Below, in pieces: positions 3,028 through 3,646 of a stretch of 64,000 nucleotides of DNA. Every line of letters begins with the position of its first letter. Position 1 is the first letter of the stretch. This stretch comes from Microcoleus vaginatus WJT46-NPBG5 (lineage in GTDB: Bacteria > Cyanobacteriota > Cyanobacteriia > Cyanobacteriales > Oscillatoriaceae), in NCBI GenBank assembly GCA_019359355.1, contig JAHHHM010000005.1:62001-126000 (forward strand). The letters run 5' to 3'. The notes beneath the pieces were generated by a model. The model made no database searches and was not told the origin of the DNA. It saw only the letters and a program-made list of their open reading frames with translations. Both the position numbers and the translations under genes were made by a program.

Positions 3028-3056
3028 TTGACATTTTTCTAAAAAACGGTAACAAT
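3028..3056 (+). promoter_or_regulatory. Probable sigma-70 promoter for the glutamine-riboswitch/DUF4278 transcript
   Basis: A perfect -35 box TTGACA (3028-3033) is followed after 16-17 bases by TAACAAT (3050-3056) as a -10. Transcription would start near 3063, about ten bases before the riboswitch. No GTA-N8-TAC NtcA box was seen overlapping it. Confidence 0.55.
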
Positions 3057-3073
3057 GAATACAGAAAGTAAAT

Positions 3074-3158
3074 CGTTCATCTCTCGTTACCTCCTCAGCA
3101 AGTCGCTGCACAGAGATACAAGAGAGACGGAAGTAGGGAGTAATCCCGAAGGAACGCG
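3074..3158 (+). promoter_or_regulatory. Glutamine riboswitch (glnA / Downstream-peptide type)
   Basis: The element has the full layout of the cyanobacterial L-glutamine aptamer. P1 is CGTTC (3074-3078) with GAACG (3152-3156). P2 is TCTCTC (3080-3085) with GAGAGA (3122-3127). The conserved core CGGAAGTAGGG (3128-3138) follows, then a short P3 hairpin GGGA-GTAA-TCCC (3136-3147), then CGAAGGAACGCG closing P1. Established knowledge: glnA and Downstream-peptide RNAs bind glutamine, and in cyanobacteria they control nitrogen genes and short proteins. Here the element lies about 40 nt before the DUF4278 start codon, behind a good promoter. It could act on translation, since the ribosome site GAGG lies at 3184-3187. 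Whether the switch is ON or OFF cannot be read from the sequence. Confidence 0.88.
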
Positions 3159-3195
3159 CCTCAATTCACCCCATAGACATTAAGAGGCGAATACC

Positions 3196-3507
3196 ATGAA
3201 ACTGACATATCGCGGAACCACCTACGACTACACCCCAGCAGCCGTTGAAACAACTGAAGGCGAACTGGTCGGCAAGTATCGCGGGCTGGATTGGAGATTT
3301 TGTAATACTCACAAGGAATTGGTGCAGCAACCCACTGTTGAGCTGAAGTATCGCGGTGTTGCTCACACAACGGATTTAGAGAAAAAGTCGGCACTGTCTA
3401 CTACAGAAAAAGCTCGCACTTTGATGTTGGATCGTCAGCGTGCCGGTCAAAACCGCCAGCGCTCACTGTTGAGCCGCGTTGCCGCTGAGATTGGTCTGGC
3501 TCTGTAA
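3196..3507 (+). CDS. DUF4278 domain small protein under a glutamine riboswitch
   Basis: This 103-residue protein begins MKLTYRGTTYDYTPA and repeats the motif at ELKYRGVAHT, which marks the cyanobacterial DUF4278 family of unknown function. The middle is rich in polar and aromatic residues, and the C-terminal half is basic (QRAGQNRQRSLLSRVA), so nucleic-acid or protein binding is conceivable but unproven. There is no signal peptide or membrane segment. The start at 3196 has GAGG eight bases upstream. The gene is a single-gene transcription unit bounded by a promoter plus glutamine riboswitch before it and a strong terminator after it. Its expression therefore probably follows cellular glutamine, linking it to nitrogen status. 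Confidence 0.9.
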   Translation: MKLTYRGTTYDYTPAAVETTEGELVGKYRGLDWRFCNTHKELVQQPTVELKYRGVAHTTDLEKKSALSTTEKARTLMLDRQRAGQNRQRSLLSRVAAEIGLAL

Positions 3508-3621
3508 GACTTTCAAGGCTACGCAAACTCCATAGAAGAGAAACATGATCGATGAGTTTTCTTCTGTGGCGTTCTCTTCAGTAAATTATTAAAGTTTGTC
3601 AAACCACTCATTCCTATCAGC

Positions 3622-3646
3622 ACCCCCGTTGGGGGTGTTTTTTTTG
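3622..3646 (+). terminator. Rho-independent terminator after the DUF4278 gene
   Basis: A perfect seven-pair GC-rich stem CACCCCC (3622-3628) / GGGGGTG (3632-3638) with a three-base loop is followed directly by eight T's. Confidence 0.92.

Follow-up and report, generated by a model that had tools for sequence, protein, structure and literature searches.

What does a glutamine riboswitch control when the gene behind it encodes a DUF4278 protein? The question is raised by a short transcription unit in a 64,000-nucleotide stretch of the genome of Microcoleus vaginatus WJT46-NPBG5 (hereafter the window, located on contig C34 of this 6.46 Mb genome, G000). An earlier note on this DNA had listed a promoter, an aptamer and a ribosome-binding site, followed by a DUF4278 gene of 103 codons and its terminator, and each of these was found at the place it had given (Table 1); the entire unit is conserved in two genomes of the same genus, G001 and G002. 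The parts listed are real, and the added statement that the unit held nothing else overlooked both an NtcA-type site and an IF7-like C-terminus (residues 68-101) of the protein. We conclude with good confidence that the unit is a short variant of the gifB type, in which a glutamine riboswitch and putative NtcA control would govern a protein predicted to inactivate glutamine synthetase (GS), and the idea that its product is a nitrogen-status effector resembling the GS-inactivating factors was thus right in direction and already known.

Table 1. Features of the transcription unit, in window coordinates
Feature	Position	Strand	Basis
Sigma-70-type promoter	3028..3056	+	-35 TTGACA 3028-3033, weak -10 AACAAT 3051-3056; 10/12 matches
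NtcA-type site GTAACAATGAATAC (GTAN8TAC)	3049..3062	+	Sequence; identical in G001 and G002
Type 1 glutamine riboswitch aptamer, RF01739	3072..3160	+	cmscan, 55.3 bits (gathering score 35)
Anti-ribosome-site strand CGCCTC	3157..3162	+	Directly 3' of the P1 3' strand; pairs with 3184-3189 in predicted fold
Ribosome-binding site AAGAGG(CG)	3182..3189	+	AAGAGG 3182-3187; covered by 3157-3162 in predicted off state
gifB-type gene	3196..3507	+	ATG 3196, 103 aa, predicted pI 9.6, stop TAA 3505-3507
DUF4278 (residues 1-56)	3196..3363	+	PF14105, 87.1 bits (cut-off 25.3)
IF7-like GS-inactivating motif (residues 68-101)	3397..3498	+	NF052599, 36.5 bits, profile 2-35 of 66
Intrinsic terminator	3619..3646	+	Stem 3619-3639 (9 bp) and T-run

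Promoter, leader RNA and terminator

Both promoter hexamers are kept in G001 and G002; a scan of a 1.1 kb region on both strands returned three such sites against 1.2 expected, so that the scan alone is weak. The NtcA-type site overlaps the -10 hexamer, and NtcA binding there would consequently repress transcription. Its form, GTAN8TAC, is what we take to be the NtcA consensus. Of 80 distinct DUF4278/IF leaders, 56 have it no more than about 190 nt ahead of the aptamer core, as against 4.6 in shuffled sequences; the 24 leaders without it include most of those ahead of IF-pirA pairs. This conserved consensus site makes the window promoter a putative target of NtcA repression, the form of control that passages of PMC6316151 describe for both gifA and gifB. 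At the other end of the unit, the terminator scan found one structure against 1.3 expected in shuffles, and we call a terminator here because of its 9 bp stem and its retention in the two sister genomes, where stem and T-run are both preserved and the loop of G002 differs by a single base.

The aptamer aligns with the full RF01739 model (positions 1-53, E 1.9e-9), above the threshold of the family and with 33 additional bases in one hairpin loop, and it is the only RF01739 match found in a search of the genome. The glutamine-riboswitch assignment of the earlier note was upheld; the Downstream-peptide model, with which a search had also been proposed, gave no match at its gathering score in the window leader (cmscan). 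The gifB riboswitch has been proven in Synechocystis (Klaehn et al., 2018, NAR, as described in PMC6316151), and by analogy the window riboswitch probably binds glutamine and raises expression.

How the aptamer might act on translation is suggested by a possible regulatory pairing, a predicted 6 bp helix between 3157-3162 and 3184-3189 that lies over the ribosome site (z-score of the fold -2.1; 6 of 200 shuffled sequences fold equally well) and abuts P1 without overlapping it; P1 itself is not formed in the predicted minimum-energy fold of the leader. The helix is perfect (6/6) in 59 of 80 distinct leaders, and paired changes occur as CACCTC/GAGGTG (three cases) and CGCTTC/GAAGCG (one case). 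When the whole set was shuffled, the pairing was beaten in 0 of 2000 trials (446 against a shuffled maximum of 445); among the variant leaders alone it was not significant (880 of 2000).

The encoded protein and its half-length IF motif

AlphaFold models the DUF4278 part as three YRG beta-hairpins with low confidence (pTM 0.35 overall) and the IF motif as a single helix, residues 69-99, which bears R74, R87 and R94 (mean pLDDT above 90 for residues 71-100). The order of parts is that of IF17/gifB, namely DUF4278 followed by an IF7-homologous C-terminus with conserved arginines. A complete IF7-like domain was not found: the second half is absent and the IF part stops after about 35 of 66 positions, which is why we call the protein a short variant. 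Because half of the domain is missing, its NF052599 score falls below the equivalog cut-off of 70 bits, and for this reason we do not file the protein as an IF7A equivalog; a local model of the IF N-half built from 29 gifA proteins nevertheless gives 42 bits, and the best score of any local IF model on 365 shuffled ORFs was 4.0. Structure searches with the window protein, an IF7 or the profile returned no convincing relative of solved structure (best E 0.52). The presumed target, GlnA, has one match in the window genome (691 bits).

The three arginines of the helix correspond to what we take to be the conserved IF7 arginines, R8, R21 and R28. They are the only invariant columns in an alignment of 24 proteins chosen to include DUF4278-bearing, DUF4278-less and full IF7 forms, and with them the 149 aa IF17-like protein L039. 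Among the matches listed, every one of 16 DUF4278-less peptides has all three, as have 32 of the 33 DUF4278-IF proteins that were aligned; 16 of 17 DUF4278 plus half-IF proteins have them, the exception being the short-form L049, with Q for R74. L039 carries K102 and R110, the residues named as important in IF17 in passages of PMC6316151, and window R94 aligns with its R110.

The short form is recurrent, with at least 17 riboswitch-driven DUF4278 plus half-IF proteins, including that of the window and two from its genus. NF052599 matches 17 of these 17 and 15 of 16 distinct DUF4278-less riboswitch peptides (both among the matches listed, and both groups pre-picked with the local IF model); the one peptide that it misses, L168, scores 13 bits with the local model. 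A half-length IF is not known to have been assayed, and we infer that this length would suffice for GS inactivation. In G001 (contig C3; L024, L093) and G002 (contig C26; L023, L094) a full gifA is directly followed by a half-length IF frame (profile 1-39). Searches of G000 had pointed to a loss of gifA and of DUF4278-PirA. At both loci of G001, however, the alignment with G000 breaks off where contigs C33 (to base 164) and C11 (to base 133) end, shortly before the genes are reached. An assembly gap is consistent with this, and we claim no loss of either gene from the window species. By this comparison a separate full gifA probably exists there, and hence the window gene need not be the main GS inactivator.

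Which part of the protein is the effector is best judged from the window's own family. In four of its genomes (G003 to G006) the gene has both the riboswitch and GTAACAATGAATAC and encodes an IF-motif peptide of 48-53 residues without DUF4278, a domain that all four carry in other genes. Its first codons in G003 and G006 retain a likeness to the DUF4278 start, as they would after an in-frame deletion; no riboswitch was found in a fifth genome, G007, which is 66% complete. Since the gene drops DUF4278 and keeps its riboswitch, its NtcA-type site and its IF motif, the likely effector of the window protein is the IF motif, and not DUF4278 as had been supposed.

DUF4278 among the genes behind glutamine riboswitches

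The treatment of DUF4278 as a family of unknown function overlooked a published link to GS control: passages of PMC6316151 state that glnA aptamers lie mainly ahead of DUF4278 genes and that the domain spans the N-terminal portion of IF17. We surveyed 60 genomes, the window's own and 59 relatives; an IF match was found in 52 of them, a riboswitch in 39, PirA in 56 and DUF4278 in 49. Downstream of the 60 riboswitch matches (one below the gathering score) lie DUF4278 with IF in 22 cases, IF without DUF4278 plus a separate pirA in six, IF alone in five, DUF4278 without an IF match in six, DUF4278-PirA in one and none of these in 20. Local models, with classes that rest on thresholds of 12-15 bits, divide the same 60 into DUF4278 with half IF (16) or full IF (7), IF plus pirA (6), IF alone (5), DUF4278 only (5), DUF4278-PirA (1) and none (20). 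A pattern scan of named genomes gave at least 119 stretches; going by their titles, 56 are cyanobacterial, and these hold 57 aptamers. With two duplicates removed, the cyanobacterial matches listed comprise 13 with DUF4278-PirA, 12 with DUF4278 only, nine with DUF4278 plus full IF, one with DUF4278 plus half IF, three with IF plus pirA, two with IF alone, one with a pirA-like frame further down and 14 with none, while the 63 non-cyanobacterial stretches had no match among those listed.

DUF4278 itself has 124 matches in the 60 genomes. An IF match stands behind 23 of them (22 with a riboswitch), and PirA follows in frame behind about 41, a count that a reading of some of the frames corrected from 43, two of them (61 and 64 aa) being separate small genes just upstream of a fusion. 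The survey of other DUF4278 genes that had been proposed found riboswitches upstream of a number of them; in the 60 genomes only one of the 41 DUF4278-PirA genes has one. Riboswitch-driven fusions number at least 14 when both searches are taken (L074, L097, L112, L114, L116, L120, L124, L140, L154, L172, L196, L200, L204 and L211), and among the matches listed all 14 match PF14105 and NF050139 with E 0.001 or better; against the PirA cut-off of 50 bits, the first fusion member scores just below (49.3) and L074 above (65.6). A third partner is an N-terminal membrane module, present in 16 of 21 DUF4278 loci without IF or PirA, chosen for mostly long frames (13.4-39.4 bits; 420 shuffles reached at most 10.0). 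It is homologous to small riboswitch-driven proteins by profile comparison (probability 98.1%, E 8.4e-14), a score that hydrophobic composition may inflate. The second DUF4278 protein of the window genome (contig C10; L002:1249-1695) is of this kind, a membrane module plus DUF4278.

Several other arrangements were seen behind these riboswitches. Nine loci (L038, L045, L046, L050, L054, L076, L098, L113, L169) are apparent IF-pirA operons, in which the riboswitch is followed by an IF-motif peptide of about 46-56 aa and, some 18-127 nt further on, by a separate pirA frame. At 13 loci (L053, L061, L067, L068, L073, L082, L084, L088, L092, L127, L132, L174, L202) the riboswitch precedes a conserved two-helix membrane protein of 64-75 aa, and the one member scanned, that of L082, reached no Pfam or NCBIfam cut-off. 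Two further small families occur (L065 and L072; L036, L142 and L177), whose scanned members likewise reached no Pfam or NCBIfam cut-off. Marine alphaproteobacterial records (L102, L104, L108, L123, L156, L157, L170 and others) have tandem glutamine aptamer cores, some of them ahead of genes that we take to resemble those for glutamine synthetase or ammonium transporters.

As judged from these domain arrangements, DUF4278 is not one functional family, being joined to at least three different modules, and DUF4278 proteins do not form the single effector class that had been proposed. Each output module is fused to DUF4278 in some genes and elsewhere stands under a glutamine riboswitch without it, PirA doing so as the second gene of the IF-pirA operons. 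We tentatively suggest, as an idea that may well prove wrong, that DUF4278 is no effector but a regulatory module, for example a tag that sets stability according to nitrogen, shared by a group of small proteins under the glutamine switch, with the IF motif (GS), PirA (PII and arginine synthesis) and the two-helix membrane module (perhaps nitrogen uptake) as outputs; the riboswitch would then keep nitrogen entry, GS and arginine synthesis in step with one another, and the IF half, at about 35 residues, would be the minimal GS inactivator. The existence of a natural half of this size makes a minimal GS-inactivating element directly testable.

These architectures bear on published annotations. 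The function of N-terminally extended PirA proteins is called elusive in passages of PMC8092223, and DUF4278-PirA is a suggested identity for them, with a glutamine switch in some lineages. Calling gifB by DUF4278 alone, as in passages of PMC11288750, may lump IF17 together with PirA fusions and with membrane proteins, given that 23 of the 124 DUF4278 matches have IF. Of the two Limnospira gifB genes described in passages of PMC8400943, one with and one without a riboswitch, the one without is perhaps a DUF4278-PirA or a membrane protein. A riboswitch is mentioned for gifB in passages of PMC7760959 and PMC13362535; in the available text of three PirA papers (PMC8092223, PMC9196836, PMC10609283) the word occurs only within a reference title. 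No open-access paper was found with PirA and DUF4278 together, and neither a DUF4278-PirA fusion nor a riboswitch-driven pirA was seen in the available open-access text; subscription papers lie outside this scope and we make no claim to a first report.

Competing readings and known systems

Taken as a short gifB-type unit, the locus would work as follows, where the Synechocystis literature is our source for which way the switch works, for repression by NtcA and for the inactivation of GS. When nitrogen is short, NtcA would sit on the promoter and repress it; when nitrogen is plentiful, NtcA would leave and glutamine would bind the leader RNA, whereupon the hairpin over the ribosome site would open and the protein be made. 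The protein would bind GS through its basic C-terminal helix with R74, R87 and R94 and so turn it off, while DUF4278 at the N-terminus probably adjusts stability or affinity, a role reported for the corresponding end of IF17, whose contribution to stability is described in passages of PMC6316151. Half-length IF7 domains of this kind are found repeatedly among related cyanobacteria, in some cases joined to DUF4278 and in others not.

Alternatively, the protein could be an IF17 relative that no longer inactivates GS, its truncated IF being a competitor or buffer that binds GS without inactivating it or protects the full IF7, so that the switch would relieve inhibition and not apply it. Consistent with this are the second half of IF7, for which none of the 17 DUF4278 plus half-IF proteins has a match among those listed, and the half-length frames that adjoin full gifA in G001 and G002; we nevertheless consider it unlikely, as the three arginines are kept in nearly all half-length proteins of both kinds, and many half-IF genes retain the NtcA-type site together with the riboswitch. 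That DUF4278 itself is the effector, with the IF motif an accessory, was the view of the earlier note. At least 17 distinct DUF4278 genes (56-143 aa) without IF or PirA do stand behind riboswitches, and for marine picocyanobacteria an IF-like action of proteins with DUF4278 alone has been suggested (passages of PMC6316151), but the four same-family genomes that keep everything except DUF4278 in this gene, and the presence of DUF4278 on PirA and membrane modules, which makes it unlikely alone to specify GS, leave this reading very improbable.

We give almost no credence to the further alternative that a full IF domain is made because the stop is either read through or erroneous. It draws on a six-frame IF7 profile match that passes the TAA (45 against 36.5 bits) in all three same-genus genomes; the 45 codons beyond the stop, however, score -2.3 bits with the C-half model, where other frames of the same set reach 2.5, which likewise led us to reject a vestigial C-half. 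The stop is identical in the three genomes, and the three codons that differ before the next stop are all replacements (S/A, E/A, R/Q), as against three silent changes and one replacement in the IF motif. In view of the low C-half score and these replacements, we take the 103 aa protein to be the product and return to the short gifB-type unit as our reading.

Among known systems, the closest is gifB/IF17 of Synechocystis sp. PCC 6803, which shares the NtcA-type site, RF01739, the DUF4278 N-terminus, the IF7-like C-terminus and the conserved arginines, whereas the window protein has 103 rather than 149 aa, a shorter linker and about 35 of 66 IF7 positions. With IF7/IF7A (gifA; NF052599) it shares residues 68-101, which align to IF7 2-35 with all three arginines, but it does not have the second half of the domain, carries DUF4278 in front and has a riboswitch in its leader. 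In other members of the DUF4278/glutamine-riboswitch group PirA takes the place of the IF motif or accompanies it; the window protein, in contrast, has no PirA match, and its genome has one stand-alone pirA match. The gifB-type arrangement is thus one already described in Synechocystis, and what differs here is the half-length IF domain.
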